32,160 nt of DNA from Verrucomicrobiota bacterium (GTDB lineage: Bacteria > Verrucomicrobiota > Verrucomicrobiia > Opitutales > Opitutaceae): NCBI GenBank assembly GCA_016871775.1, contig VHCI01000027.1:1-32160 (forward strand), written 5' to 3'. Each line of letters opens with the position of its first letter. Position 1 is the first letter of the stretch. Positions 1 through 13,616 of the stretch are shown one piece after another. The translations under genes and the position numbers were made by a program. The notes beneath the pieces were generated by a model. It had not been told where the DNA came from, ran no database searches, and saw only the letters and a list, made by a program, of their open reading frames with translations.

Positions 1-297
1 TGGGCCTGCCAGAACTTCAAGACGGGCGAGGAGGCCTGGAAGGTGAAGAACCTCGGCAAGGGCGCCGTCGCGTACGCGGACGGGCGTCTGTACTGCCTGG
101 ACGAGAGGGATGGGACGGTCGCCCTGATCGAGGCTTCCACGCAGGGTTGGAAGGAGCACGGGCGCTTCCGGATCGAGCCGCAGACCAAGATCCGCAGCGA
201 GCGGGGCAAGATCTGGACGCACCCCGTGATCAGCAATGGGCGGCTCTACCTGCGGGATCAGGACGTCATCGTCTGCTACGACGTGAAGGCCGGCTAA
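1..297 (+). CDS. PQQ-like beta-propeller repeat protein, C-terminal part
   Basis: The reading frame is open from the first base of the window, so the true start lies upstream and only the last 98 residues are visible. The segment has short propeller-blade repeats of the type G-x-L-Y-C-L-D-x-x-D-G-T followed by G-R-L-Y-L-R-D-Q-D, and ends in Y-D-V-K-A-G. This is typical of the PQQ-binding-like/BamB-like outer propeller blades found in many secreted verrucomicrobial and planctomycete proteins. Whether the full protein is a PQQ dehydrogenase or a non-catalytic propeller cannot be decided from this fragment. A strong terminator follows 28 bases after the stop, so this is the last gene of its transcript. 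The propeller call is fairly safe; the function is unknown. Confidence 0.75.
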   Translation, partial: WACQNFKTGEEAWKVKNLGKGAVAYADGRLYCLDERDGTVALIEASTQGWKEHGRFRIEPQTKIRSERGKIWTHPVISNGRLYLRDQDVIVCYDVKAG

Positions 298-324
298 GCC
301 CGGCGGGAACCGGTCCGGAAAGCG

Positions 325-352
325 AAAAGGCCCCTCGCGGAGGGGCCTTTTT
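325..352 (+). terminator. Rho-independent terminator after the propeller gene
   Basis: An 8-bp perfect stem (GGCCCCTC / GAGGGGCC) with a 3-base loop is preceded by four A and followed by five T. The symmetrical A and T runs would let it act on both strands. It lies just beyond the 3' end of the minus-strand tRNA-Pro, so it may serve both transcripts. Confidence 0.85.
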
Positions 353-359
353 CATTGGA

Positions 360-436
<77 letters not shown>

Positions 437-528
437 ACATCCGGCTCGCCGAAGCGAGGGAGAGGGACGGAGCCGGAGGAGAGCCCGGGGAGCAAGCAGA
501 AAAGCGGTTCTTTCCGGAATTCGCGCAG

Positions 529-558
529 AAAAAAACCCGGTGCTTGCGGCACCGGGTT
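529..558 (-). terminator. Rho-independent terminator of the exbB-tonB operon
   Basis: On the minus strand a 10-bp stem (AACCCGGTGC paired with GCACCGGGTT, 5-base loop) runs into a run of seven T. It begins 15 bases after the stop of the last coiled-coil gene and closes the seven-gene operon that starts at 5444. Confidence 0.85.
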
Positions 559-572
559 CGCACAGGGCGAAA

Positions 573-1115
573 TCACTTCTTCGCCGGCGGCGGGGCGGGG
601 ATCACCGGCGGTCGGGTCAGCGAACTGTCCGCAGCGCGGCGGGAAACCATCTCGGTCATCCGCTGGATCTCGAGCTCAGCGTTCCGGCGGGCGACGCGCG
701 CGAGTTCAACCTTTTTGGCCAGCTCGAAGGCTTCCCGGCTGGTGGCGTCCTTATCCTTGCGCAGCTTGGCGAGTTCGGCCTCGAGGGCGTCCACCTGCTT
801 CTGGGCGGCGGCGCCCTTGGCGGTGTACTCCGCGGTCTGGTCCTTGACCTTCTTGTCGTCGGCAGCCTGCTTGGCCACCTTCTCGGCCTCCTTCTTGCGC
901 TCCTCGGCGTCACGCTCGTCCTGACGCTTCTTGGCGTCCTCGCGGGCCTTGGCCTCGGCGGCCTTCTTCTTGGCCTCGGCGTCGGCGCGCTCCTTCTCGA
1001 TCCGGGCGGCGGTGGCCCGCTCCTTGATCTTCGCCTCCTCAACGTGGGCGCGGAAGACAAAGACGAAGCCCAACAGCATCACCGTCGGGGCGAGGACATA
1101 CATCCACTTTTTCAT
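573..1115 (-). CDS. Membrane-anchored coiled-coil protein B (TonB operon)
   Basis: This 180-residue protein has one N-terminal membrane segment (about residues 5-22). A long Lys/Glu/Ala/Arg-rich stretch follows (about 25-160) with strong heptad-like character, ending in a Pro-rich tail that finishes PPPAKK. No enzyme motif is visible. It is the last gene of the exbB-exbD-exbD-tonB-TPR operon, 18 bases after coiled-coil protein A, and a terminator follows. The layout resembles the rod regions of TolA or TonB: a short inner-membrane anchor with an extended periplasmic helix. A role as a periplasmic spacer or scaffold for the TonB complex is inferred from position and shape. The GC-rich repetitive sequence creates long false reading frames on the other strand. 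Confidence 0.8.
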   Translation of the reverse strand: MKKWMYVLAPTVMLLGFVFVFRAHVEEAKIKERATAARIEKERADAEAKKKAAEAKAREDAKKRQDERDAEERKKEAEKVAKQAADDKKVKDQTAEYTAKGAAAQKQVDALEAELAKLRKDKDATSREAFELAKKVELARVARRNAELEIQRMTEMVSRRAADSSLTRPPVIPAPPPAKK

Positions 1116-1133
1116 CGGGTAAGGGTAGGAAGG

Positions 1134-1691
1134 TTATTTCTTGGCGGCGGCGGCGGCAGCGGCGGCGGCGGCTTTCGCCGCGTCCTCGGCGGCCTTGTCG
1201 GCGGCCTGGATGCGCTCCAGGACCCCCTTGAGGCTGTTGGCGTTGGCCTTGGCCTTCTTGACGTACTCATTGAGGAACTTCTCCTCATCGACGACGATCT
1301 TCCGGGCGGCGACGACCTCGGCGAGTTCCTTCTTCTCGGCCTCGATCTCCTTCTGGAGGCGTCGGGTCTGGGCTTCCAGCTTGTCGGCATCGCGGCCGGC
1401 CTTGTCGCGAGCTTGGCGGGCCTGCTCGCGCTGTTCCTTGGCGATCGCCTCGCGCTCGTCGCGGACTTTCTTCTCGGCCTTGCGCTTTTCCTGGGCCTCG
1501 AGGGCGGCGGCGACGGCTTTTTCGCGGTCCTTCGCCTCCTTCTCGAGTTTGGCTTGGCGGGCCTCACGGGCGGCCTTCACCTTGCCCTGTTCGCGCGCCT
1601 GGTACTGGGCGTGCGCGTTCCAGTAGAGGCCGAAGAAAAAGGCGGCCAGCGCGACCATCGGCACCACGAAATAAATGTAGCTCTTCTTCAT
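1134..1691 (-). CDS. Membrane-anchored coiled-coil protein A (TonB operon)
   Basis: This 185-residue protein starts MKKSYIYFVV and has one membrane segment (about residues 4-24). The rest is a continuous charged helix (about 28-165) rich in K, E, A and R, ending in a poly-Ala stretch of about 13 residues and KK. It shares architecture, size and a MKK start with the next gene (573-1115), so the two are probably paralogues, although coiled-coil composition makes similarity easy to overestimate. It starts 16 bases after the TPR gene and 18 bases before the second coiled-coil gene. Its place in the operon suggests a structural partner for the TonB machinery. I recognise no named family. Confidence 0.8.
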   Translation of the reverse strand: MKKSYIYFVVPMVALAAFFFGLYWNAHAQYQAREQGKVKAAREARQAKLEKEAKDREKAVAAALEAQEKRKAEKKVRDEREAIAKEQREQARQARDKAGRDADKLEAQTRRLQKEIEAEKKELAEVVAARKIVVDEEKFLNEYVKKAKANANSLKGVLERIQAADKAAEDAAKAAAAAAAAAAKK

Positions 1692-1707
1692 TGGGATAGG
1701 GATGGGA

Positions 1708-3138
1708 TCAGCTCTTGGCCTTGGGGGCCTTCTCAGTCTTCTTGGACTCGCGTTCGGCGATGGCCTCTTCGATGACCGATTTCAGGCGGGGGAATTGGGC
1801 ATCCTTCTTGGACTCCTCGAACGAGGAGGCCTTCTCAATCGCGGCCTTGGCCTCATCGATCTCGCCGAGGTCGTAGGCGGTGTAGGCGATCAGGTAGTGG
1901 GCCGAAAACGGCTTGGTACCTTCGAAATTACCCTTCTGGACCGCGAGCTTGGCGTGCTTCAGCGAATCCCGGTTGTTCTCCATCTGGGTGTAGATCTGGG
2001 CGATCTGCATCTCGATCTCCCCCTTGGTCGGGAACAGGCCGGCGGCCTCCTTGAGGACCTTGATCGCCTGCTCGTTCATATTGGCCTCGAGGTAGTAGCG
2101 GCCGAGCACGCGCCAATTGTTCGGCTCGTTCTCGATCTCACCCTTCTTCATCCCCTGGTAAAGGATCTCGGTGCCCCGGCTGAACTGGCCGGCCATCAGG
2201 TAGAGGGAAACGAGGTTCATGCTGTCCTTGGGCGTCTTCATGTGGCCCTTGGCTTGGGCACGCTCGCAGGTGACGATGGCCCGGATGAGATATTCCCGGG
2301 AAAGGTTCGGATCCTCCTTGGACGCCTTCTCCGAGAGCTGCAGGTAAGACGCCATTAGCAACTGCCAGAAATCCTTCTTGTCGGCGTTCTGGGCGAGCAG
2401 CAACTCGATGTACTCAGCGGAACCGCGGAGGTCATTCTGCTGCTGCAGCAGGGTGAGCAGGAGCTGGTAAAAGCCTTCACGGGGGCGGATCGAGTCCATC
2501 AGCCCGCGCTCCACGACCTTCTGCGTCTCGGCGAGCCCGTCGCGGTCGATATTGTTAGGATCCGCTACCGAACGGTAGTAGAGAATCGAGGCATAAGCCA
2601 TCAGCGTCTCCGGCGTCGGCTTCTTCGTCTTGTCGAGGTAGCGTTTGAAGTAGGTGATCGCCTTGGCGAAAGACTGCTGCTGGACCTTGGGGTCCTTGGA
2701 ACTGGAACCTTCCTGACCGTACAGCTGGGCGAGGAGCACCACCGTCTCGAGGGTCTGCTTCTCCGGGAAATATTCGAACCTGTCCGAGAGCTCGATGGCC
2801 TTCTCCCACGGCGCGATCGCCTTGGAGAGCTGGTTAGTCATCGCGAAGATCTTGGCCTTCATGTCGAGGATCAGCGCCTCGTCGTAGCTGTTGGCCTGCA
2901 CGGGGACCGCCTCGAGCACAACAAGCATCCCGTTAAAATCCTGCTTCTCTTGGAGCGGACGCAGCTTCTGGAAGGCTTCGCTGGTCTTCTCCCCGATGCT
3001 CGGGGGGCCCTTCTTTTGGGCGGGCGGGGGCGCGGAAGCAGCGCCGAGAGGGAGCACGAGGCCCGCGAAGGCGGAGCTGAGGAGGAACAGGCGAATCGAG
3101 CGACCGCCGGCCGGCAGGGAGGGGAGCAACAGGGACAC
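1708..3138 (-). CDS. Secreted TPR-repeat protein of the TonB operon
   Basis: The 476-residue product has an N-terminal signal peptide (hydrophobic core about 17-33, cleavage probably near GAASA). Helical repeats of tetratricopeptide type follow: Ala/Leu/Tyr-rich pairs such as LMAYASILYYRS, WRVLGRYYLEANMNEQAIKVL and HYLIAYTAYDLGEIDEAKAAI. The C-terminus is Lys-rich. It begins 6 bases after tonB, so it is almost certainly co-transcribed. Periplasmic TPR proteins are known partners in some multi-component TonB systems, for example the extended TonB2-type clusters of marine Gammaproteobacteria. By analogy it may organise the complex in the periplasm; that role is inference, while the TPR fold and export are well supported. 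Confidence 0.85.
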   Translation of the reverse strand: MSLLLPSLPAGGRSIRLFLLSSAFAGLVLPLGAASAPPPAQKKGPPSIGEKTSEAFQKLRPLQEKQDFNGMLVVLEAVPVQANSYDEALILDMKAKIFAMTNQLSKAIAPWEKAIELSDRFEYFPEKQTLETVVLLAQLYGQEGSSSKDPKVQQQSFAKAITYFKRYLDKTKKPTPETLMAYASILYYRSVADPNNIDRDGLAETQKVVERGLMDSIRPREGFYQLLLTLLQQQNDLRGSAEYIELLLAQNADKKDFWQLLMASYLQLSEKASKEDPNLSREYLIRAIVTCERAQAKGHMKTPKDSMNLVSLYLMAGQFSRGTEILYQGMKKGEIENEPNNWRVLGRYYLEANMNEQAIKVLKEAAGLFPTKGEIEMQIAQIYTQMENNRDSLKHAKLAVQKGNFEGTKPFSAHYLIAYTAYDLGEIDEAKAAIEKASSFEESKKDAQFPRLKSVIEEAIAERESKKTEKAPKAKS

Positions 3139-3144
3139 GGTGAC

Positions 3145-3798
3145 TTATTCCTCGTTGAGGGTGAAGACAATCGGAACCTGCATGTGTGTCGGCACATCGC
3201 GGCCGCCCTTGCGGCCCGGCTTGAATTTCCACTTGCTCACCGCGGCTACCGCGGCCGCCTCGAATTCGCGCTGCGAGGAGCGGAGCGCGTAGGCATTCTG
3301 GACGTCGCCGTTGGTATCGACGATGAAGTCAACGACGACCTCACCGGCAATGCCCGCGCGGCGCATTTCAAAGGGATACTGGGGACGCGCCTGGAACTTC
3401 GGCACCGGCGTCTGATCGAGCATCGAGATGTCGAACACCTTCATCCCGCGGAACATATTCGGATCGCGGACGTCCGGGACGATATTCATGCTGGAAGAGA
3501 TGGTTACGCCCTCCGGCGGAGGCGGCTGGATCTTCTGCACGAACGAATCCGGCTGCACCAGCTGGGGGACGTCCTGCTGCATCGGCGGGGCCAGATCCAG
3601 GGGTTTCACGTCCGGATCATTGTTCTCGATGATTTCCGGTTCCTCCTCGACCTTAGGCATCGCGATAAGCTCCAGCTTGGGCGGCGGCTCCTCGATCTTC
3701 TTAGCCACCTTCTTCTCCGGAATCAGCTTGTCGCCGAAAAGGATCGCGAGGTGAAACGAGGCGGAAAGGAGGACTCCGATGATGATGTCGCGGGTCAT
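3145..3798 (-). CDS. tonB: Energy transducer TonB
   Basis: The 217-residue protein has the classical TonB plan. A single N-terminal membrane anchor (about residues 5-22, IIIGVLLSASFHLAILFG) includes the conserved Ser and His positions. A Pro/Glu/Lys-rich periplasmic spacer covers about 27-110. The C-terminal TonB domain (about 135-215) shows PQYPFEMRRAGIAGEVVVDF, a central TNGDVQ turn and the AAVAAVSKWKFKPG helix-strand motif. It transmits proton-motive energy from ExbB/ExbD to outer-membrane receptors such as the one at 6834-10118. It starts 17 bases after the second exbD gene and 6 bases before the TPR gene. Confidence 0.93.
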   Translation of the reverse strand: MTRDIIIGVLLSASFHLAILFGDKLIPEKKVAKKIEEPPPKLELIAMPKVEEEPEIIENNDPDVKPLDLAPPMQQDVPQLVQPDSFVQKIQPPPPEGVTISSSMNIVPDVRDPNMFRGMKVFDISMLDQTPVPKFQARPQYPFEMRRAGIAGEVVVDFIVDTNGDVQNAYALRSSQREFEAAAVAAVSKWKFKPGRKGGRDVPTHMQVPIVFTLNEE

Positions 3799-3815
3799 GG
3801 CGGCGCTGGTCCGAA

Positions 3816-4265
3816 TTATTTGCCGGTGGGGCTCGAAACCGTCTCGACGGAAACCTGCTCGATGCCGGCCTTGCGCACCTCGTCGAGAGCGAAGACGGCG
3901 GCGCCGAAGCGGGCGCGGGTGTCGCCCCGAATCAGGATCCGGGGATTGTTCTCGCTGCGGCGGTAATCCTGCAGGCGGGGAGCGATCTCGGCGCTGGAAA
4001 TCGGCTCCGCCGTACCTTGACCTTGCTTCCAGTAGTAGGCGCCGTCCTCGGAGACTTGGAGGTAGATCGTCGTATCGTTCGGGTTGGACTGGACGTTCTG
4101 CGGCTGCGCCACCGGCAGGGTGACCGGGAGCGAAACGATCCGACTCAGCGAAAGAGTGAACAGCACGAACGTGGCCAACAAGAAGAAGATGACGTCGATG
4201 AGAGGGATGATCTCAATACGAGCCTTCTTCTTATCGTCACCGGGTTGAGGAGAGGAACCAGCCAT
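3816..4265 (-). CDS. ExbD/TolR-family biopolymer transporter (second copy)
   Basis: The 149-residue protein has a short Lys-rich cytoplasmic N-terminus, a single membrane helix IPLIDVIFFLLATFVLF (about 20-36) with the Asp needed for proton coupling in ExbD/TolR, and a periplasmic domain ending near VSVETVSSP. It directly follows another exbD gene (27-base gap) and precedes tonB. The first 40 residues are almost identical to the upstream copy, including 36 identical bases, while the periplasmic domains have diverged. This points to duplication followed by specialisation, perhaps to form a heteromeric ExbD pair. Confidence 0.92.
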   Translation of the reverse strand: MAGSSPQPGDDKKKARIEIIPLIDVIFFLLATFVLFTLSLSRIVSLPVTLPVAQPQNVQSNPNDTTIYLQVSEDGAYYWKQGQGTAEPISSAEIAPRLQDYRRSENNPRILIRGDTRARFGAAVFALDEVRKAGIEQVSVETVSSPTGK

Positions 4266-4292
4266 GGGGCGGGGAAGGAGAGGGGATCTAAC

Positions 4293-4727
4293 TCAGCGGC
4301 CGGTTTGGCGGACCTTGGTCTCGATGAAGATCTTCTGGAAGCCCGTCTTGCGGGCCTCGTCGAAGACGTACAGGGCGGCATTGAACAAAGCCCCCTCGTC
4401 GCCGTTGATCAGAATCCGACCCTCGGGCTCGGCCGACTTGAACGTACGGAGGCGGTCGATGAACTCGGCGAGGCTGATGTAATCCTTGTTCCAAGCGATC
4501 GTGCCGGCCTCGGTTACGGAGATCGTGACTGTGCCCGCTGGATCTCGAGCCTCCCCCGATTCTGCGGACGGGAGGTTGATGCCTGCCACCCCGTTCGATT
4601 TATTCAGGGAGAGCGTGAAAAGCACGAAGGTCGCCAGCAGGAAGAAGATGACGTCGATGAGAGGGATGATCTCAATGCGCGCCTTTTTCTTCCCGTCCGA
4701 AGTCGTACCACCAGAGGAGCCGGCCAT
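4293..4727 (-). CDS. exbD: ExbD/TolR-family biopolymer transporter (first copy)
   Basis: The 144-residue product starts MAGSSGGTTS and has the Lys-rich stretch KKKARIE before the membrane helix IPLIDVIFFLLATFVLF, with the conserved proton-carrying Asp. The periplasmic domain includes ILINGDEGALFNAALYVFDEARKTG, the usual ExbD region that ends in a short beta strand (IFIETK). It lies 48 bases after exbB. It forms the proton channel with ExbB and works with TonB. The second ExbD gene immediately downstream shares its N-terminus. Confidence 0.93.
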   Translation of the reverse strand: MAGSSGGTTSDGKKKARIEIIPLIDVIFFLLATFVLFTLSLNKSNGVAGINLPSAESGEARDPAGTVTISVTEAGTIAWNKDYISLAEFIDRLRTFKSAEPEGRILINGDEGALFNAALYVFDEARKTGFQKIFIETKVRQTGR

Positions 4728-4775
4728 GGCGAGAGGGGGAGGTTTAAACCGGAGCCTGAAACTCGGGGCGCGGAA

Positions 4776-5444
4776 TCAATGCCGGGCCGAGGAGCCCTCT
4801 GACTTCTTCGTCAGGAGCTCGAGGGAATGGGACACGTCGGAGACTTCGAGTTTGGCCTGGCTGTCCATCGCGTTGAGGTAGTTGTAGGGGAACAGGCCGA
4901 GTACGGCGACGGCAAGACCGGCGGCCGTGGCGATGAGCGCCTCGGCCACACCACCCGTGATCGCGCCGGCGGCGGCGCCGATGTCACCGCCCCCGAGGGC
5001 GCCGAAGGTGCGCATCATCCCCGTCACCGTGCCAAGGAGTCCGAGGAGCGGGGCGGCGGTGATGCAGGTGTCGAGCGTGGCCAGACCCTGCTGGTAGCGA
5101 GAGAGCTGCTGGCCGGCTGCCCGAGTGAAAGCGTTGGTCAGGGACTGTTCCCGGTGCTTGAGGCTTTCTGTGATGATCTGGGCGAGAAAGTCAGAGCTGC
5201 CTTTGCCCATCGCGATTGCGGCATCGGCGTCGCCGCGCTCCACGGCCTCCAACATCTTCTTCACCAGTTCGGGCTTCCGGGAGGACTTCTCTCGGAAGAT
5301 AAAGATGAGGCGCTCCACGGTGACCGTGATCATCACGAAGGACACTAAGATCATCGGCCACATGATCCATTCGCCCTTGATGAACAGTTCCATCGGAGTG
5401 GCGTCGCCGAGGAGAAACGCGAGGGGGAGGCTTTGCATAATCAT
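4776..5444 (-). CDS. exbB: ExbB/MotA/TolQ-family proton channel
   Basis: The 222-residue protein has three membrane segments: about 25-45 (WIMWPMILVSFVMITVTVE), and a pair at about 125-150 and 165-190. The family signature TAAPLLGLLGTVTGMMRTF lies near 128-146 and is followed by the Gly/Ala-rich helix AITGGVAEALIATAAGLAVA. This is the stator-type subunit that forms the proton channel with ExbD. It is the first gene of the minus-strand operon. Two in-frame ATG codons, two codons apart, are possible starts; neither has a clear Shine-Dalgarno sequence. Confidence 0.93.
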   Translation of the reverse strand: MIMQSLPLAFLLGDATPMELFIKGEWIMWPMILVSFVMITVTVERLIFIFREKSSRKPELVKKMLEAVERGDADAAIAMGKGSSDFLAQIITESLKHREQSLTNAFTRAAGQQLSRYQQGLATLDTCITAAPLLGLLGTVTGMMRTFGALGGGDIGAAAGAITGGVAEALIATAAGLAVAVLGLFPYNYLNAMDSQAKLEVSDVSHSLELLTKKSEGSSARH

Positions 5445-5600
5445 GACTGGGAGTTGATAGGACTAGGAATGAAGGGGATGATCGTTCGGGGAAAGCGAGG
5501 GGAAGCGGCGCTTCAGGCGCGGGGTCGGGAGCAAATCCAGCCCAAGAAGCGCTTGGGACGGCGGTTGGAGCGTTCGAAAGCCAGCAGCATGAAAGTCCGG

Positions 5601-5629
5601 ACTAGGGAAAAGGGAAACTTAGGTGTCAA
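5601..5629 (-). promoter_or_regulatory. Candidate sigma70-type promoter for the exbB-tonB operon
   Basis: On the minus strand a perfect TTGACA (complement of 5624-5629) is followed after 17 bases by CCTAGT (complement of 5601-5606), a weak match to TATAAT. It would give a leader of about 150 bases before exbB. The surrounding 60 bases are clearly more AT-rich than the genes. The rest of 5445-5708 shows no supported gene. The poor -10 keeps confidence moderate. Confidence 0.4.
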
Positions 5630-5708
5630 CTTACTTTGTCGGGGACTTCGGTGAAAAGAAAATGGCGCCTTTTCTTCCAACGCTAAGCGCGGCGCGGGAG
5701 GCAAAGCT

Positions 5709-5782
5709 TGGCTGCCCGACTAGGACTCGAACCTAGACAAAACGAGTCAGAGTCGTTTGTGCTACCATTACACCATCGGGCA
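5709..5782 (-). tRNA. tRNA-Gln (CTG)
   Basis: The acceptor stem TGCCCGA/TCGGGCA is perfect. The anticodon stem AACGA/TCGTT encloses the loop CTCTGAC (anticodon CTG), the T-loop is TTCGAGT, and CCA is encoded at the 3' end. It is the third member of a minus-strand tRNA cluster. Confidence 0.95.
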
Positions 5783-5820
5783 GGAAAGCGGAGGGGAAAG
5801 CGCGGCGCGGAACGGGCCAG

Positions 5821-5895
5821 TGGAGCCGGCGATGGGATTCGAACCCGCAACCGCCTGTTTACAAAACAGGTGCTCTACCGTTGAGCTACGCCGGC
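5821..5895 (-). tRNA. tRNA-Thr (TGT)
   Basis: The acceptor GCCGGCG/CGCCGGC is perfect. The anticodon stem CCTGT/ACAGG closes the loop TTTGTAA (anticodon TGT), the T-loop is TTCGAAT, and CCA is encoded. It lies 38 bases upstream of tRNA-Gln on the same strand. Confidence 0.95.
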
Positions 5896-5953
5896 AACCC
5901 CAACCCAGATCCGAGGAAAAGTGGGAAAAAACGCGACCAAAACCGACAGCCCT

Positions 5954-6028
5954 TGGTGGCTCCCCGGGGACTCGAACCCCGAACCTACTGATTAAGAGTC
6001 AGCTGCTCTACCATTGAGCTAGGAAGCC
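5954..6028 (-). tRNA. tRNA-Lys (CTT)
   Basis: The acceptor GGCTTCC pairs with GGGAGCC through one G-T pair. The anticodon loop CTCTTAA gives CTT, the T-loop is TTCGAGT, and CCA is encoded. It is the first gene in the minus-strand Lys-Thr-Gln cluster, probably transcribed as one unit. Confidence 0.95.
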
Positions 6029-6044
6029 GCGCTAGGAAACGATG

Positions 6045-6073
6045 AAAACCTCCCAAGGCGCTCGGGATGTCAA
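6045..6073 (-). promoter_or_regulatory. Candidate promoter for the tRNA-Lys/Thr/Gln cluster
   Basis: A perfect TTGACA (complement of 6068-6073) lies on the minus strand about 40 bases before the 5' end of tRNA-Lys. The spacing would place transcription start about 10 bases upstream of the tRNA. The matching -10 (GGTTTT or GTTTTC) is weak, so the call rests mainly on the -35 and the position. Confidence 0.4.
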
Positions 6074-6833
6074 CTGCGATTTCCGCCCGCGCCGCAGCGG
6101 CTCGGGCCAGCCTCAGCGCGCACCCCGCGGTGCCAGCTTCCAGCGGGGTAAAACGGAGCCGCTGCTCCGCGCGCCGTTCTCCGCGAAATCAGGAACGAAG
6201 CGGACAAACTTCGACCCCGCCCAGTCCACGCCCACCGAGATCCGCAGGATGCCCGCGGCAACCTGGATAACACCGGATTTGTCGCCGTACTCGGCGGCGC
6301 TGCGCGTCTGGCCGAAACGGCTGGTGCCTAGGCTACGGCAGCAGTTGGAAAAAGATTCCGCCGCGCGACCTATAGACATTCGGATATCGTAGTTGTGGAA
6401 GAAGGCCACCCCCGCCCCGCCGCCGCAGCAAGTCGTGAATCGTCGCGTCCCAACCAAGCTGTCGCTCGGCGAGGGGATCCCGGCCCTCTGGGTTCCGCCC
6501 GCCCCGGTCGAAGAAATGGGAGGCCTCCGCGCCGCCACGGCCCTCACGCGTCTCCCCGCCCACCAGCGCGGGGCTGGGGATTCCCCTGACCCCCCGCGTT
6601 CCACGACCACCCCGCAGAAATTGGCCGTGAGAAAGGGAGTCTGCGGGGGGGCGCGGTCATGGTGAGTAACGCGACGGTCTCGTGGCCGCGCTAGGCGCCG
6701 AGCTCGATGAATGAGAATCCATCGGGCTCGGCCAGACCCGCGAACCGCCATCCGCAGGCCAGTTTCACCCTCCTCGGGCACGGCAGGCAGATGAATTCCG
6801 GCGACTGGGGATGACAGGAATTTAAACCTACCG
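6074..6833. other. About 760 bp without a convincing gene
   Basis: This stretch separates the tRNA cluster from the 3' end of the TonB-dependent receptor gene. Several open frames overlap here, but none has a recognisable domain or start context. The most protein-like piece is on the minus strand between about 6150 and 6400, with segments such as AAEYGDKSGVIQVAAGILRI and VGVDWAGSKFVRFVPDFAE. It resembles a beta-rich fragment and could be the remnant of a decayed gene. I see no terminator of standard form after the receptor stop at 6834. Confidence 0.3.
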
Positions 6834-9800
6834 TCAGAAGCGCTTGGAAACCTGGCTGTAGTAGGCGCGGCCGCGCGGGTTGGTGCCGGCCCCGCGCTGG
6901 TAACCCGTGTCCGAGTCGGCGAGCGGCGGGTCCGTGTCGCGCACATTGTTCACGCCGAGGCGCGCGGAGAGGTTGGACCAGAGGGAACCGCGGCGGGAGG
7001 GGAAGGCGTAGTTCACGTAGGCGTTGTGCAGGACGTGGCTGGAGACGAGGTAGCGGTAGCGGCGCACGCCGCCCGAATCGACGTAACTGGAAATGTAATT
7101 CGGGCGGCCGAGAGCGGCATAGACCGACTCCGTGGTGGCGGTGCCGGTATCGACGTACGGGCCGTAGTAGTTGGTAAACCAGCCGGCGCTCCAGCCCTCG
7201 TGGCGCCAGTTGAGGCCGATGTTGCCGCGGAAGCGGGTGCGGCCGTTGCGGTTGATGTTGCCGACTCTCGGAGCGCCCGGTTCCGACTGGGTGTCGAACT
7301 GGAGCAGGTAGGAGGCGTCCCCGCGCACCGTGCCCTGTCCGAGGCGGGTACGGGGCAGGCGGTATTCGAAGCCGAAATCGAGGCCCTCGGCCTCGCGGCC
7401 AGCGAGGTTGACGTAGTCCGTGGTCACCGAGCGGATCCCGCCGACGGGCGCGCGGCGCTCCTGCGGGGGCCGCGTGGCGTTGAAGGCGGCAAAGGCCTCG
7501 ATGTCTGCGGGGGCGACCGGGTCGCGCACGACCTTCGGGTTGCCGACATAGCCCGCGGTGCCGCTACCGAGGTCAACGCGCTCGATCGCCGTGCCGGCGG
7601 CGAGGGCCCGGCGGACGGCGCCGTCCAAGAGTTCCTCATCGAGCAGGAGTTGCGAGGTGCCGCTGACCGAGGAGATCACGTCGCGCTGGCGGATCCGCCA
7701 GTAGTCGACGGTGACGGTGAGGGCCCTGAGGAACGGCGGGGTGAACCCCAGTCCGAGCGAGAGGGAGCGGGCGGTCTCCGGCTGGAGGTTGGCGTTGCCT
7801 TGGCGGAAGACCACTGGGACCGCGTTGGAGTCGCGATTGAGGCCGGTTACCTCGGCACGGTAGACGTCGTTGAAGGTGGAGCCGGAGCGCTGCAGCGGGG
7901 TGACGTTGGACTGAACGAGGTTCGGGGCACGGAAGGAGGCGGCGCTGGTGGAGCGGACGAACAGCCACTGATTGGGCCGGTAGTTGAGCCCGATCTTGGG
8001 TTTCACCGTGTCCCCAAAGTCGGAGAAGCGTTCGGCGCGGCCGGCGACGGAGACCTCGAGGGAGCGGGCGAAGCGGCTGCGGTTCATCTTGCCGATCACC
8101 GGAAACAGGGCCTCGGCGAAGACGGAGGCGTTGGTGCGGGACTTGTAGAGGTTGGGGTTCGGGCTGAGGGCGATGAAGTCGTTCTCGTTGGGCCCGAAGA
8201 AGAGATTGTTGGGATCGGAGGCGTTGCCGTTAAAGGGGGCCTCGGCCGGGTTGAAGGAGGCGTAGGACGGGCGCCAATCCTTGTAGTCCTCCCAGCGGAA
8301 CTCGGCGCCGAGGGCTAGGCCGATCGCGCCGCCCCAGAAGCCGTCGAGCACACGGCCGTTAAGCTTCAGGTCCCAGCTGGCGAGCTGGGTACGACCCTCG
8401 CGGACAAAGTCATCGTAGAGAGAGTTGGTGAGCGCCTCGGGGTTGCGGAAGGGGCGGTCGACGACCAGCAGGTAGGGATTCGCGGTGCTGGCCTGCGGGA
8501 CGAGGCGGAAGGTGTAGCTGAACGGATTGAATGCCTTGGCCGGATCGGAGGTGGTAAGGGCGGCGCGGAGGCGGCTTTCGCGGACGGCGAAGTTCTCCAC
8601 GTCGCGGGTGAAGTTGCGGCCGTACATCAGGCCGGACTCCCATTCCCAGCCGGCCGCAAACTTGCCCCGGAGACCGCCCACAAGCCGGATGGCGGTGGAG
8701 TTGACGGTGATGCGGCGGGGCTGGAAGTCGCGGGGGATGATGCCGACGCCACCGAGGAACTGCAGCGCGGCGGGGGCGCCGGCGAGACGCGGGGAGCCGT
8801 CGGGATGGGGGCGGCCCTGCGGATCGTAGAACCGGCTGCCGAAGGGGTTGAACGGTTGGTCGGCGCTGAGGTAGATGTTGTGGTCGGTGCTGGAGTCGAA
8901 GGCGGAGGGCAGGCGGCCGGTGATCGACTTCGCCCGGTAGGTCAGCACCTCGCCGAAGGCCTCGAGGTCGCGGCCGAGTTGATGGCGCAGCACGGCGGTG
9001 AGGTTGAGGCGGTCCGTGCGCGGGAGGATCGGTTTGAAGTCGTTGGGGTTCTGGTACCAGTTGACCGTGAAGTCGTCGATGTTGTGCGAGGGCAGCGTCT
9101 GCCGGAAGCCGACGTCCCCGTCGGCGAGCGGGATGAGGTAAAACGTCCCATTCGTCGCGGTCGTGGCGCTGGTGGAGCCGGAGGTTGTGATGATCCCGCG
9201 ATTCCCCTCGGGCCGAGCGCCGACGAAGCTGAAGTTGGGGCCCCAGTTACCGCGTACAAAGCCACCGTAGTAGCTCGAATCGGTGCTCAGGCGGTTGTCG
9301 AAGTCGTTGTCCCGGATAACCGTGCCAGTAGCGTCGAGGAGCGGCAGGCCGTCCCACGGCGGCGGAACGTTGCGGACGACACGGAGGTCCTGGTTGCGAG
9401 AGAACTTGCGCTGGTTGAGCCAGAGGAAGTCGCGGTGGTAGTAATCGAGGGTCACCAGCAGATTGCTGCGCCCGCGGTTGAAGTTCCGCCCATCGGTGAT
9501 CTCGACGTTCCAATCATTGCCGCCGCCGCGCTGCGTGACGCTCGCGCGGGCGCGCATTGAGAGGCCGTCAAAGCGGGTGCGGGTGATGGAGTTGACCACC
9601 CCGGCCGCGGCGTCGGTGCCGTAGATGGCGGAAGCGCCGTCGCGGAGCACCTCCACGCGGGAGATGGCGGCCATCGGGAGGTTGTTCACATTGGTGGAGA
9701 GCGAGGGAACGGAGCTCTCGGCCATGCTGATCGGGTGCGGGGGCAGGCGTCGGCCGTTGAGCAGCACCAGAGTGTTGCCCGAACCGAGCCCGCGGAGGTT

Positions 9801-10118
9801 GATCGTCGAATTGTCGCCGCGGGCGTCGGCCCCGAGGGTGTTACCCTCGTCAAGCGTGATGGGGCCACCGATCGAAAAGGTGTCGAAGAGCTCGGCCGCG
9901 GTGGGAACGCCCCGCAAGTCGAGGTCCTCGAGATTCATCACCGTGACCGGAAGGATCTTCTCCTCGTCCAGCCGGCGGATGTTGGAGCCGGTGACGGTGA
10001 ACGCTTCAAGTTGCACGGCCTCGCCCTCCGGGGGGGCGGGCGGGCGGGGCGCCGGGGCGGGTTGGGCCCGGAGCAAGGGCGGAAGGAGCAGCAACAGGAG
10101 CAGGCGGGCGGATCGCAT
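6834..10118 (-). CDS. TonB-dependent outer-membrane receptor
   Basis: The 1094-residue protein has a signal peptide (residues 1-18, Leu-rich, cut near LRA-Q) and a Pro-rich linker. A TonB-box-like segment AVQLEAFTVTG covers about 34-44. The plug domain (about 55-175) contains NLRGLGSGNTLVLLNGRRLP and ISRVEVLRDGASAIYGTDAAAGVVN. A large 22-strand barrel follows, ending in the typical aromatic C-terminal Phe (QVSKRF). The plug GASAIYGTDAAAGVVN motif and barrel segments such as FRAPNLVQSNVTP are standard for this family. It lacks the N-terminal carboxypeptidase-like domain many relatives carry. It is divergent from the GH84 operon with a 124-base shared promoter region, so import of an amino-sugar oligosaccharide is likely but inferred. 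Confidence 0.95.
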   Translation of the reverse strand: MRSARLLLLLLLPPLLRAQPAPAPRPPAPPEGEAVQLEAFTVTGSNIRRLDEEKILPVTVMNLEDLDLRGVPTAAELFDTFSIGGPITLDEGNTLGADARGDNSTINLRGLGSGNTLVLLNGRRLPPHPISMAESSVPSLSTNVNNLPMAAISRVEVLRDGASAIYGTDAAAGVVNSITRTRFDGLSMRARASVTQRGGGNDWNVEITDGRNFNRGRSNLLVTLDYYHRDFLWLNQRKFSRNQDLRVVRNVPPPWDGLPLLDATGTVIRDNDFDNRLSTDSSYYGGFVRGNWGPNFSFVGARPEGNRGIITTSGSTSATTATNGTFYLIPLADGDVGFRQTLPSHNIDDFTVNWYQNPNDFKPILPRTDRLNLTAVLRHQLGRDLEAFGEVLTYRAKSITGRLPSAFDSSTDHNIYLSADQPFNPFGSRFYDPQGRPHPDGSPRLAGAPAALQFLGGVGIIPRDFQPRRITVNSTAIRLVGGLRGKFAAGWEWESGLMYGRNFTRDVENFAVRESRLRAALTTSDPAKAFNPFSYTFRLVPQASTANPYLLVVDRPFRNPEALTNSLYDDFVREGRTQLASWDLKLNGRVLDGFWGGAIGLALGAEFRWEDYKDWRPSYASFNPAEAPFNGNASDPNNLFFGPNENDFIALSPNPNLYKSRTNASVFAEALFPVIGKMNRSRFARSLEVSVAGRAERFSDFGDTVKPKIGLNYRPNQWLFVRSTSAASFRAPNLVQSNVTPLQRSGSTFNDVYRAEVTGLNRDSNAVPVVFRQGNANLQPETARSLSLGLGFTPPFLRALTVTVDYWRIRQRDVISSVSGTSQLLLDEELLDGAVRRALAAGTAIERVDLGSGTAGYVGNPKVVRDPVAPADIEAFAAFNATRPPQERRAPVGGIRSVTTDYVNLAGREAEGLDFGFEYRLPRTRLGQGTVRGDASYLLQFDTQSEPGAPRVGNINRNGRTRFRGNIGLNWRHEGWSAGWFTNYYGPYVDTGTATTESVYAALGRPNYISSYVDSGGVRRYRYLVSSHVLHNAYVNYAFPSRRGSLWSNLSARLGVNNVRDTDPPLADSDTGYQRGAGTNPRGRAYYSQVSKRF

Positions 10119-10242
10119 CGGCTTCAGGACCTACTACATCTGGCGGCAAGCGGCGCGGGGGCAAGCCCGTCTGCCGGAACGAGGGCCGAGCTTGCCAGCC
10201 GCTAGGGCGCGGTGCCTGCTCGGCGCACCAGCCTTACCTCCA
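10119..10242. promoter_or_regulatory. Divergent promoter region with three GGCAAGC motifs
   Basis: This 124-base region must hold the promoters for both the receptor (minus) and the GH84 operon (plus). The heptamer GGCAAGC occurs at 10145-10151 and 10160-10166 in direct orientation, 15 bases start to start, and again inverted at 10190-10196. The arrangement is suitable for a transcription factor; the GntR/LacI-type regulator at 15585 is the obvious candidate. No clear -10/-35 pair is visible. Confidence 0.35.
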
Positions 10243-12369
10243 ATGCGCCCCTCCCTTCCCCGACAGCTCCGCCGCTTCCTGCCCCTCCTGCTCGCCCTGA
10301 CCGCGGGGGCGCGCCCGATCCCCCAGGAATTCCGGCAGGAGACGGCCCTGCACCACGTCGCGGAGCCGGGCCGGCCCTCGGGCGCGGTGGAGGAAGTGAT
10401 CATCGGCCCGGAGGGCGAACCGCTCTGCCGGACCGGGCGCACGTGGAGCGCGCGCCGGAACGGGGCCTGGGAGGTGCTGGCGGCGCCTCCCGCCCGCGCG
10501 ACCCCGCCGGACCTGCCGCCGCAAGGGGAGCCCTTGCAGCTGGCGCGAGGACCTGATGGCACGTGGTGGGCGGGGACCCGCGCGGGCCTGTGGCGGCGGA
10601 CCCCGGCCGGTTGGGAGGAGGAACTGGTGCTGGACGGGGCGGGCCGGCGCTGGGCGGTCGGCGAAGTGCGAGCGGTGGCGGTCGACTCCGCTGGACAAAC
10701 CTGGTTCGGGGTCGCCGCCGGCGTGGGCGTACGGACGCCGGGCGGCTGGCGGTTCCTCGAGGGCAAGGATGGTCTGCCGTGGAACGGCTTCACCGGCGCG
10801 GCGGCCGGACCGGGCGGCGAGGTGTGGTTCGGGACGGACCGGGGCGCGATCCGCTGGGACGGGCGCGAGTTCCACTATCGCCAGGGGCCGCGATGGCTCC
10901 CGGAGGACCGCATCGGGGCCTTGGCGGTGGGACCGGACGGCACAGCCTGGTTCGCGACCGCGGCGGGCGTGGGCGGCATCGCGCGGCGGCCGCTGACGCT
11001 CGCGGCCAAGGCGGAGTTTTACGAGGGGGAGATCGACCGGCACATCCGACGGACCCCATTCGGTTTCGTGGCGGAGGCGACCCTGCGGATTCCGGGCGAC
11101 CGCGCGAGCGCGGGGCGGCACGACTCCGACAACGATGGGCTGTGGACGGCGATGTATGGTGCGGCCGAATGCTTCGCCTATGCAGCCACCGGGGATCCGC
11201 GGGCCAAGGCGCGCGCGGACGCCGCGTTCGCAGCGCTCCGATTCCTGCAGACCGTCACCCAAGGCGGGCCGGTGGCCCCGCCGCCGGGCTTCGTGGCGCG
11301 CACGGTCTTACCGGGCGACGGCCCGGACCCGAATGCCGGGCAGGCGGAGCGTGACCGCGCAATGCAGGGCCGGGACGCGCTCTGGAAACGCCTTGAGCCC
11401 CGCTGGCCGCGCAGCGCCGACGGCCGCTGGTACTGGAAGGCGGACACCAGCAGCGACGAGTTGGACGGGCATTATTTCTTTTACCCGCTCTACCACGACC
11501 TCGTGGCGCGGACTCCGCAAGAAAAGGCAGCGGTGCAGGAGGTGATCCGCGCCCTCACCGACCACCTGCTCGCGCACGGCTTCACCCTGCGGGACCACGA
11601 CGGGCGCCCGACCCGCTGGGGAATGTACGCTCCGGAGCGGCTGAACGCGGACCCGCACTGGGTCGTCGAGCGCGGGCTGAACTCCCTCAGCCTGCTCGCC
11701 TATCTGAGTGCCGCGGCACACGTGACTGGGGATGGCCGCTACACCGCGGTGGCGGCGGAGTTGGCCGCGCGGCACGGCTACGCGCAGAACCTATTCCACC
11801 CCAAGTTCCAGACGGGCCCGGGCTCAGGCAACCAGTCGGACGACGAGATGGCCTTCATGTGTTTCTACACCCTGCTGAACACGACCCGCGACGCGGCCCT
11901 GCGGGAGAGGGCGCTGACCGCATGGTGCGTGTACTGGGGTCTCGAGGCCGCGGAGCGGAATCCGTTTTTCGCCTTCGCCTACGCCGCGCACGCTGAAGGC
12001 CGGACCCTGCGCAACCTGTGGGGCGAGTTCCCGATCTCCCCCGCGGCAGGGTGGCTGGAGGACGCCGCCGCGACCCTGCGTGGATTCCCGCTGGATCGCC
12101 TCAACTGGCCGCTCCGCAACGCGCACCGCCTAGACGTCGTGCCGCTCCCTGCGGTGCAGGCGAGGGACCCGCACGAGCCGGGGAACGAGGGCCGGGGCCA
12201 CGGGCGCGACGGGCGGGTTCTGCCGGTGGAAAACCGGCACTTCAACCACTGGAACACGGACCCGTGGCAGCTCGATTACGGCGGCCGCGGGGATGTCCTC
12301 GGTGCGGGCACGGTGTTCCTGCTCCCCTACTACTTGGGCCTGCACCACGGGTACGTCGCGAAGCCATGA
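10243..12369 (+). CDS. Secreted protein: sensor-type beta-propeller repeats plus alpha-toroid domain
   Basis: The 708-residue product has a signal peptide (about 1-23). At least four propeller repeats of the two-component-regulator type follow, with G-P-D-G-T-W-W-A-G-T (103), D-S-A-G-Q-T-W-F-G (148), G-P-G-G-E-V-W-F-G-T (189) and G-P-D-G-T-A-W-F-A-T (230). The rest (about 255-700) is helix-rich, with conserved-looking acidic motifs HDSDNDGLW (293-301), DTSSDELDGHYFF (401-413) and GNQSDDEMAF (529-538), and a His/Trp/Asp-rich tail around residues 665-680. This resembles an alpha/alpha-toroid carbohydrate-active fold, but I cannot name a family. I chose the ATG at 10243 because the signal peptide begins there; the frame is open further upstream but that part is antisense to the receptor. 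It overlaps the EIIC gene by 4 bases. Confidence 0.85.
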   Translation: MRPSLPRQLRRFLPLLLALTAGARPIPQEFRQETALHHVAEPGRPSGAVEEVIIGPEGEPLCRTGRTWSARRNGAWEVLAAPPARATPPDLPPQGEPLQLARGPDGTWWAGTRAGLWRRTPAGWEEELVLDGAGRRWAVGEVRAVAVDSAGQTWFGVAAGVGVRTPGGWRFLEGKDGLPWNGFTGAAAGPGGEVWFGTDRGAIRWDGREFHYRQGPRWLPEDRIGALAVGPDGTAWFATAAGVGGIARRPLTLAAKAEFYEGEIDRHIRRTPFGFVAEATLRIPGDRASAGRHDSDNDGLWTAMYGAAECFAYAATGDPRAKARADAAFAALRFLQTVTQGGPVAPPPGFVARTVLPGDGPDPNAGQAERDRAMQGRDALWKRLEPRWPRSADGRWYWKADTSSDELDGHYFFYPLYHDLVARTPQEKAAVQEVIRALTDHLLAHGFTLRDHDGRPTRWGMYAPERLNADPHWVVERGLNSLSLLAYLSAAAHVTGDGRYTAVAAELAARHGYAQNLFHPKFQTGPGSGNQSDDEMAFMCFYTLLNTTRDAALRERALTAWCVYWGLEAAERNPFFAFAYAAHAEGRTLRNLWGEFPISPAAGWLEDAAATLRGFPLDRLNWPLRNAHRLDVVPLPAVQARDPHEPGNEGRGHGRDGRVLPVENRHFNHWNTDPWQLDYGGRGDVLGAGTVFLLPYYLGLHHGYVAKP

Positions 12370-13616
12370 ACCCGCCCCTGCCCCACGCCGGCGACCGCTG
12401 GCTGCGCGGCCTGCAGGCCGTGGGGGACAACCCGGCGCTGGCGGCGATTCGCGCGGGGATGGTGGCCCTCGTCCCGTTGACCATCCTCGGCGGCCTTTTC
12501 TTGGTCCTCACGCACCTGCCGTGGCCGGGCGGCGCGGCCCTGCCCGCGGCGTGGAAGCCCGCCCTTGAGGTCCCCGTCACCGCAACCTTCGGCCTGCTCG
12601 CGGTGTTCGCCTGCTTCGCGATCGCGCACGACTTCGCGGGCCGGCTGGGGCTCGACGCGGCCGGCTCGGCGCTCCTCGCCACGCTCTGCTTCCTGCTGCT
12701 GCAGGTGAAGCCGGGCGCGCCCGGCCTGGACCCGGCCGCGCTCGGTTCGGCGGGACTCTTCACGGCGATCCTGGTGGCACTGGTGGCGGTGCGGGTGAAG
12801 GCGTGGTTCGTCGCGCGCGGCCTTGTGATCCGGCTCCCCGGGGAGGTGCCCCCGGTGGTGGCGGAATCCTTTTTGTCGCTCGTCCCGCTGGTCGCACTGG
12901 CGGGCGGCTTCTGGGCGCTGCGTTTCCTGCTGGGGCTGGACCTCAACGCGGCCGTGCAGGCGGCCTTCGCGCCGCTCGTCTTCGCCCTCGACACCCTGCC
13001 CGGCATCCTCGTCTACGCGCTCCTGGTGACGCTGCTCTGGTCCGTGGGGGTCAACGGCGACAACACCCTCGACGCGGTGGTCGCGCCCGTGTTCCTGCAG
13101 TTACTCGCCGCGAACGTGGCCGCGCTGGCGGAGGGTCGGCCCCCGCCGCACGTCACCGCCAACGGCTTCTTCTCAACGTTCGTCAACGTGGGCGGCACCG
13201 GGGCGACGCTGGGCCTCGCGCTGGTGCTCTGGCGGTCGCGGGACCCGGGGCTGCGCCAGGTGGCGCGGCTCTCGCTGCCCACGCAGGTCTTCCAGATCAA
13301 CGAGCCGATCTTCTTCGGCGTGCCGATCGTGCTGAACCCGCTCCTGATGGTCCCGTACATCCTCAACGCGCTGCTCCTCACGGCGGGCACCTACGCGCTG
13401 ATGGCGGCGGACCTGGTGTCACGGCCCGTCCTCAACATCCCGTGGACGACCCCGCCGGTGATCGGCCACTACCTGATCACGGGCGGCGACTGGCGGGCCG
13501 CGGTGTGGGGCGTCGTCTCGCTCGCGCTGGCGACGCTGGTGTACCTGCCCTTCGCCCGCGCGCTGGAACGGAGCCGCCGCGCGGCCGCGCCCGCCCCGGA
13601 AGATTCCCGCCGATGA
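12366..13616 (+). CDS. Solitary PTS-type EIIC sugar permease (lactose/cellobiose family)
   Basis: The 416-residue membrane protein has about ten hydrophobic segments. It carries EIIC hallmarks: VPPVVAESFLSLVPL (161-175) and the substrate-binding loop FQINEPIFFGVPIVLNP (309-325) with Glu313. In characterised diacetylchitobiose/cellobiose EIIC proteins a GIHG motif carries a His near the sugar; here the matching stretch SVGVNGDN has Asn230 instead. No EIIA, EIIB, HPr or EI gene is present in the window. It may be a PTS subunit completed elsewhere or a permease that no longer depends on phosphorylation. It overlaps both the preceding and the following gene by ATGA, so transport and GH84 hydrolysis are tightly coupled in expression. 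Confidence 0.88.
   Translation: MNPPLPHAGDRWLRGLQAVGDNPALAAIRAGMVALVPLTILGGLFLVLTHLPWPGGAALPAAWKPALEVPVTATFGLLAVFACFAIAHDFAGRLGLDAAGSALLATLCFLLLQVKPGAPGLDPAALGSAGLFTAILVALVAVRVKAWFVARGLVIRLPGEVPPVVAESFLSLVPLVALAGGFWALRFLLGLDLNAAVQAAFAPLVFALDTLPGILVYALLVTLLWSVGVNGDNTLDAVVAPVFLQLLAANVAALAEGRPPPHVTANGFFSTFVNVGGTGATLGLALVLWRSRDPGLRQVARLSLPTQVFQINEPIFFGVPIVLNPLLMVPYILNALLLTAGTYALMAADLVSRPVLNIPWTTPPVIGHYLITGGDWRAAVWGVVSLALATLVYLPFARALERSRRAAAPAPEDSRR

Follow-up and report, generated by a model that had tools for sequence, protein, structure and literature searches.

Positions 1 to 32,160 of contig VHCI01000027.1 (assembly GCA_016871775.1, a Verrucomicrobiota bacterium; hereafter the window) carry on the minus strand, at 573-5444, one tight TonB operon of seven genes in the order ExbB-ExbD-ExbD-TonB-TPR-CC1-CC2, where TPR stands for a tetratricopeptide repeat protein and CC1 and CC2 for two membrane-anchored helical rods (Table 1). 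The intergenic gaps measure, in gene order, 48, 27, 17, 6, 16 and 18 nt. A preliminary description of this DNA had listed ExbB, two ExbD, TonB, a TPR protein, two anchored rods of similar size and a terminator; all seven frames were found where it had placed them, and frames, Pfam matches and hairpin agree with that list. With an ExbB, an ExbD that has the membrane Asp, and a TonB that has both S-x3-H and the C-terminal domain, the operon belongs to the TonB-ExbB-ExbD systems.

Table 1. Features of the operon and its flanks in the window.
Feature	Position	Strand	Details
ExbB/TolQ-like proton-channel subunit	4776-5444	-	222 aa; PF01618 MotA_ExbB 91.7 bits (cut-off 22.9)
ExbD copy 1	4293-4727	-	144 aa; PF02472 85.2 bits; P-L-I-D-V transmembrane Asp motif
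ExbD copy 2	3816-4265	-	149 aa; PF02472 81.0 bits
TonB	3145-3798	-	217 aa; PF03544 TonB_C 73.4 bits; S-x3-H transmembrane helix, spacer, C-terminal domain
TPR protein	1708-3138	-	476 aa; GTG start; N-terminal hydrophobic stretch; several TPR families over cut-off; occupies TtpD position
CC1, membrane-anchored helical rod	1134-1691	-	185 aa
CC2, membrane-anchored helical rod	573-1115	-	180 aa; proline-rich tail
Terminator-like hairpin 3' of CC2	533-559	-	11 pairs, 7 G-C, then T-run
tRNA-Gln/Thr/Lys	5709-6028		upstream of operon
tRNA-Pro(CGG)	360-436		downstream of operon

The window ExbB matched seven solved TolQ/ExbB sequences, and the motif of the first ExbD recurs in the form P[LM][IM]D[VCM] in 63 of the 67 rows labelled ExbD1. 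The S-x3-H motif of the window TonB is shared by 59/70 family rows, and the nearest solved structure to this TonB is the TonB2 domain 2k9k (6.4e-08; remaining TonB entries 1.2e-05). Given the protein's own spacer of about 115 residues, the rods would not be needed merely to lengthen TonB. No match among solved structures was found for the TPR protein, and neither CC1 nor CC2 reached the cut-off of any Pfam or NCBIfam family. The CC2 profile likewise retrieved no solved structure; a hit to Vfa1 (PF08432, 6.9e-05) was rejected, as it lies below the family cut-off and reads as low-complexity. Support for the hairpin behind CC2 comes from its position and length, because the hairpin scan gave 9 terminator-like sites against 6.5 in shuffled sequence. 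No sigma-70-like promoter was found on the minus strand within 1-6500.

To follow the gene order, the TPR protein was used as bait in 57 relatives, 30 of which gave a match, including 28 of the 37 genomes of the window's own GTDB family (by inference Opitutaceae, the order being Opitutales). The 34 stretches obtained and the window together make 35 loci, and the operon is present, whole or in part, in 33 of these, the two excluded being L063, an unrelated TPR protein, and L064. All seven genes are present and in order in 28 of the 33, the window counted; the remaining five (L031, L040, L041, L050, L061) run into contig ends. CC1 follows TPR in 31/33 loci, the two misses (L031, L040) being contigs that end at TPR, and CC2 is complete in 30/33 and truncated where the contig stops in L041. 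Among the loci read, no whole operon of this kind (hereafter CC-type) was seen without the rods. Two genomes have multiple whole operons (2 in G030, 4 in G031), every copy with both CC1 and CC2.

The picture was extended by scanning the genomes of 84,980 species. The scan relied on one conserved CC2 peptide pattern, so that distant forms would escape it, and its 142 pattern matches were reduced to 97 relatives and 80 CC2 loci kept (17 of which repeat loci of the relatives set). The full gene order was read in 63 of the 80; a further three (L184, L214, L254) have the same genes with a frame split, doubled or over-extended, giving 66 whole operons. Contig ends truncate the other 14, of which 11 keep TPR-CC1-CC2 and three CC2 alone. 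TPR and CC1 lie directly upstream of CC2 in 77 of the 80 loci, and CC2 was found in other gene company in none of the 80, the 3 that start at a contig edge being unjudgeable. ExbD is doubled in the 28 complete operons of the relatives set and in the 66 whole operons of the scan. Nearly all CC2 loci come from one GTDB family. The CC2 profile gave a similar reach: in a phylum sample it matched 25/288 genomes, namely 24 of the 25 listed genomes of the window's family plus G055 (family f20), and in an order sample 18/177, namely all 15 listed genomes of the family, G055, G399 (f21) and, weakly, G375, where the match is a 425-aa frame without operon partners. The family-wide variant of an extended TonB motor is real. 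The preliminary description had pointed to the seven-gene order in Opitutales as the thing to check and to loss of the rods from the operon in close relatives as the sign against it; the gene order holds in the CC-type loci, and the rods are conserved with the operon.

We would like to note some irregular loci. L064 (G023:C29) has a frame with a piece of the operon's TPR family (residues 55-174) and no further operon gene labelled nearby. One of the four operon copies in G031 is followed by a loose CC2 piece with a stop (contig 1, 2481179-2481505). In L053 (G028), three rods instead of two follow TPR (7944-9608), and TonB, with its start as shown, is without S-x3-H in the membrane helix. Two loci of the species scan (L211, L214) with the same rods and operon genes are on contigs titled Acidobacteria and Acidobacteriaceae, perhaps mis-titled bins; all other loci of that scan carry titles of Verrucomicrobia or of groups inside it.

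The closest described system is the Vibrio TonB2 operon, which the available part of PMC6957404 gives as TtpB2-TtpC2-ExbB2-ExbD2-TonB2-TtpD2, TtpD2 being a TPR protein of 425 aa, and in which TtpB2 and TtpD2 are required for TonB2-dependent uptake. Similar to it, the window operon has ExbB-ExbD-TonB followed by a TPR protein, has additional operon proteins, and encodes a TonB nearest to a TonB2 domain; the likeness to TtpD consists in the position of the TPR protein and in its TPR families. Unlike it, the window operon has two ExbD, which also occur in some operons of the Ttp type in the order, and two rods after TPR. As it has neither TtpB nor TtpC, it is not itself of the Ttp type.

In other families of the order the usual arrangement is TtpB(DUF3450)-TtpC-ExbB-ExbD-TonB-TPR, which is the Vibrio TonB2 layout (L128, L129, L133-L136, L158-L161). 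These operons open with a DUF3450 protein (about 250-290 aa), which is followed by a TtpC-like ExbB (about 460-480 aa), the short ExbB, one or two copies of ExbD, TonB and TPR. In both operon types TPR directly follows TonB. PF11932 was confirmed by Pfam in the five Ttp-type DUF3450 proteins scanned; the DUF3450 gene of L128 was taken from the DUF3450 search and is absent from the frame list, and in L156 and L157 the short ExbB is unlabelled. Two members of the window's family also have Ttp-type loci, L168 (G271) and L170 (G033), with TtpB, TtpC, two ExbD and TPR and with no TonB or short ExbB labelled. Single TonB_C genes outside a Ttp operon were found in L131 and L132, and L130 is ExbB-ExbD-TonB only. 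A sister-family table in the accessible part of PMC13274419 shows TonB, two TolQ/ExbB, TolR/ExbD and TonB-plug genes in a row, a set that would be compatible with a Ttp-type operon.

The two accessory sets were not found within one operon. Neither TtpB nor a TtpC-length ExbB (a TtpC-matching frame of more than 330 aa) was found in any of 119 CC-type loci as far as each reaches; upstream of ExbB, 34 extend at least 3 kb, 61 extend 1-3 kb and 7 less, and 17 are without ExbB. Window positions 1-12500 hold no TtpB, their sole TtpC-profile match being the 222-aa ExbB, and the best DUF3450 match in the window's genome (3.7e-4) is below the cut-off. CC1 and CC2 were absent from all 17 Ttp-type loci, each of which has at least 2.7 kb after TPR. 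DUF3450 exceeded the cut-off in 87/177 order genomes and, among the 15 genomes of the window's family in that sample, only in G143 and G191. These two and G055 and G399 have both operon types, as separate operons.

For the rods themselves, AlphaFold2 predicted one unbroken helix each: residues 3-184 of CC1 (182 residues, mean pLDDT 91.8, pTM 0.44) and residues 4-163 of CC2 (160 residues, mean pLDDT 89.6, pTM 0.40). These are single chains predicted from 23-row alignments, and high confidence in a lone helix says little on partners. Rod length is nearly fixed. Residues 25-160 of CC1 correspond to a 136-residue span in 86/90 rows, and residues 25-155 of CC2 to a 131-residue span in 88/92. In pairs of 25-45% identity, indels per 100 residues amount to 0.07 for CC1 and 0.12 for CC2, whereas the spacer of TonB has 4.39 and TPR 1.17; gaps were counted in MAFFT global alignments for the rods and auto alignments for the controls, and the anchor-to-anchor lengths are less affected by this choice. 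The near-fixed length suggests a length constraint, as unconstrained low-complexity helices would be expected to behave otherwise. Both rods are rich in Ala, Glu, Lys and Arg. Between residues 26 and 110, opposite-charge pairs at i,i+4 are 1.7-2.2 times as frequent as in shuffled sequence, and the membrane-near half has few hydrophobic residues. The distal half of CC1 (residues 96-165) has a hydrophobic period of 3.48 (0/300 shuffles as high), and CC2 has a conserved distal stretch at about residues 134-156.

The membrane helices of both rods carry Y-x3-P-x6-F-x3-Y, which is the spacing of the S-x3-H-x6-L-x3-S (SHLS) pattern of TonB and TolA. According to the part of PMC12215075 available, TonB and TolA share that pattern and touch ExbB or TolQ through its Ser and His; TolQ pentamers have been observed with one to three TolA (PMC12905483, likewise in the part available). 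When counts were anchored on the membrane Pro alone and rows without such a Pro (nine CC2, one CC1) were excluded, the conserved positions were -4 (Tyr in 96% of CC1 and 94% of CC2 rows), +7 (Phe, 98% and 95%) and +11 (aromatic, 92% and 95%). Among 560 triples, -4,+7,+11 ranks 2 for CC1 and 1 for CC2, and the four residues of the stripe lie within 60 degrees of one helix face. Since such spacing is a common helix stripe, we treat the SHLS-like pattern as a lead and no proof. The N-terminal side of the membrane helix is the more positive one in 80/90 CC1 and 76/83 CC2 rows, a charge bias that favours an N-in orientation with the rod in the periplasm.

We compared CC1 and CC2 to each other in two ways. 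Across 88 paired loci, their covariation (20-letter alphabet, top 100) peaks near zero offset, at 3.08-fold versus at most 1.49 elsewhere; the row-shuffled null is 1.00 (sd 0.37), and 2.20 remains when the strongest patch is masked. This hints, if weakly, at parallel, in-register neighbours. Profile comparison gave a 99.1% probability, and we rejected the reading of CC1 and CC2 as whole-length paralogues, as the score comes mostly from the membrane segment: it stays at about 98% with the rod columns shuffled, reaches 39.5% for the rod alone, and falls to 0.1-0.2% with all columns shuffled. Because the score survives shuffling of the rod columns, the anchor alone is clearly common to the two.

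The preliminary description had suggested that the rods could be TolA-like spacers. Part of this stands, namely the single-helix prediction, the composition and the N-in charge bias: similar to E. coli TolA, the rods have an N-terminal membrane anchor, a long Ala-rich helix and SHLS-like spacing. They are nevertheless not TolA. No TolA C-terminal domain was found with Pfam or NCBIfam, the helix continuing to residue 163 of 180 in CC2 and 184 of 185 in CC1; where TolA has the SHLS residues the rods carry Y, P, F and, at the fourth position, mostly Y or F; and there are two proteins of nearly fixed rod length. The operons of the form vWA-TolQ-TolR-TPR known from the PVC group (PMC12204202) have vWA and not TonB as the transducer, and no rods are mentioned in the available part of that source. 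Full-text searches, with at most 20 papers listed for each, gave no description of such an operon or of a two-rod TonB system in titles or abstracts, subscription papers and preprints lying mostly outside the search. The preliminary description had missed that TonB operons with TPR and extra helical proteins are known (in the part of PMC6957404 available) and occur in many genomes of the order; the unusual point is that the accessory proteins have been exchanged.

Our preferred interpretation, to which we assign a probability of about 0.5, is that CC1 and CC2 are paired, ExbB-docked struts that cross the periplasm and take the place of TtpB and TtpC. The operon would then encode a TonB2-like extended motor in which TtpB and TtpC have been replaced by the two rods. 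By analogy with the SHLS-like spacing, the membrane helix of each rod would dock outside the ExbB pentamer in the fashion of TonB and TolA, on the ring beside TonB, and the rods would lie next to each other, in parallel and in register, and reach about 20 nm or further across the periplasm. Their conserved distal ends, together with the TPR protein, may fix how far the motor stands from the outer membrane or the receptors, and it is by this fixed distance, we propose, that force through TonB would not be lost. A more specific form of the proposal, with TonB, CC1 and CC2 on equivalent outer sites of the ExbB pentamer and a parallel, heteromeric CC1-CC2 strut of fixed length serving as a periplasm ruler, as an alternative to TtpB/TtpC, is offered tentatively and is less probable.

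A number of observations weigh against this interpretation. Profile comparison found no homology of CC1 and CC2 with TtpB or TtpC (probabilities of 0.5-6.5%), so that "replacement" refers to position and company and not to descent. The positions, too, correspond only inexactly, in that TtpB and TtpC open their operon and CC1 and CC2 close theirs. For orthology of the TPR proteins across the two operon types, the 98.6% probability is unusable because L063, the unrelated TPR protein, scores 98.9% against the Ttp-type TPR set. The covariation is partly clade-level, with neighbour swapping retaining 2.19 (sd 0.38), and it drops to 1.17-1.32 with a six-class alphabet and the strongest patch masked. 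As for the membrane stripe, the Pro is absent in 9/92 CC2 rows, an alternative residue set is equally good for CC1, and the positions -4/0/+7/+11 are also one common helix face, so that the SHLS match may be coincidence. The ExbD1 and ExbB regions, which are folded domains, also differ by just 1-3 residues in most rows, no ExbD1 or ExbB pairs falling in the 25-45% identity band, and the distal half of CC2 has no significant hydrophobic period (196/300 shuffles as high).

The same holds for members of the family that have neither the rods nor, in part, anything in their place. CC2 was missing from 11 of 17 genomes of the family, most of the 17 having been picked for a missed TPR or CC2, and from all nine that gave no TPR match. 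G271 and G033 have the Ttp-type operon and no CC2. In G012 and G016, where CC2 was not seen, the loci are cut by contig ends, that of G016 inside TPR (L127). Neither CC2 nor DUF3450 exceeded the cut-off in G008, G011, G019, G021, G026, G034 and G036. Of these, G008, G019, G021, G026 and G034 gave nothing beyond weak TonB_C matches; G011 has a single strong one, on a stretch (L126) that shows neither ExbB nor ExbD, and strong ones also occur in G036, a genome 67% complete.

Among other explanations, we give most weight to an inner-membrane scaffold or assembly pair, which we regard as possible, if doubtful. The rods would recruit the TPR protein and stabilise ExbB-ExbD-TonB without reaching the outer membrane, their length being set by coiled-coil register with a partner and not by how wide the periplasm is. 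Such a role would suit the linkage to TPR in the 77 loci where it can be read, the conserved distal stretches, which resemble binding sites, and the charge-paired, hydrophobic-poor membrane-near half together with the 3.48 period of the CC1 distal half. However, at 0.15 nm per residue and with the membrane part counted in, helices of 160 and 182 residues come to some 24 and 27 nm, which is long for a purely local role. An improbable alternative has CC1 and CC2 driven by the ExbB-ExbD motor and transmitting force or motion outward, with the proline-rich tail of CC2 or the TPR protein as effector; the SHLS-like spacing and the N-in bias are consistent with it, but the Ser and His of SHLS that contact ExbB (PMC12215075, in the part available) are replaced by Tyr and Pro, and no folded C-terminal domain was found.

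Two further readings remain. If their N-termini lay outside, the rods would be cytoplasmic and bound to the cytoplasmic face of ExbB. The N-tails are mostly only 4-6 residues long and the charge difference is not N-in in 10/90 CC1 and 7/83 CC2 rows, yet charge favours N-in in the great majority, and we consider this arrangement very unlikely. Hardest of all to credit is the suggestion that CC1 and CC2 are operon passengers with no TonB role, given that CC2 never kept other company in the species scan (3 loci unjudgeable), that every operon copy of G030 and G031 includes both rods, and that the rods are nearly indel-free.

The distribution of the operon fits vertical inheritance within the family, with transfer to G055 and G399. 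In an ExbB tree, one branch (88/93; 84% of bootstrap trees) has the 33 CC-type rows together on the same side, and the G055 and G399 copies fall inside this CC-type group; the window ExbB is not a row of this tree, nine of its rows have fewer than 100 residues, and it contains branches flagged as long. Of 19 CC-type loci scanned, 13 have neighbouring tRNA-Lys-Thr-Gln genes; the f20 and f21 copies and four others lack them. The tRNA-Pro(CGG) gene downstream and the tRNA-Gln/Thr/Lys genes upstream recur in place across several genera of the family.

Within the window's genome, TonB_C has one strong match, which is this operon (1.3e-20), and one weak match on another contig (4.3e-7), and there are 111 matches to the Plug domain of TonB receptors; the operon therefore probably energises most receptor uptake in this genome. 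A TonB-dependent receptor is encoded at 6834-10118, upstream of the operon and beyond the three tRNA genes. The last 771 bases of L125 (G000:C76:9000-16196) are 92.8% identical to window positions 1-773, including the end of CC2. We rejected a second operon copy as the explanation, the CC2 piece on C76 reading as a second strain in the bin, and because the bin seems to contain such second-strain pieces, the Plug count may be inflated.

The operon bears on the way TonB motors deal with periplasm width and on the role of the additional proteins in TonB2-type systems. One lineage seems to have rebuilt its TonB uptake machinery: the family kept the motor, TonB and the TPR protein, and has two simple rods where its relatives have TtpB and TtpC. 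The unusual feature is this exchange and not the extension of the operon as such. One order thus offers a natural experiment with two unrelated accessory pairs, and a few of its genomes have both operons. In rods as simple as these, length, register and membrane stripe could each be altered separately.

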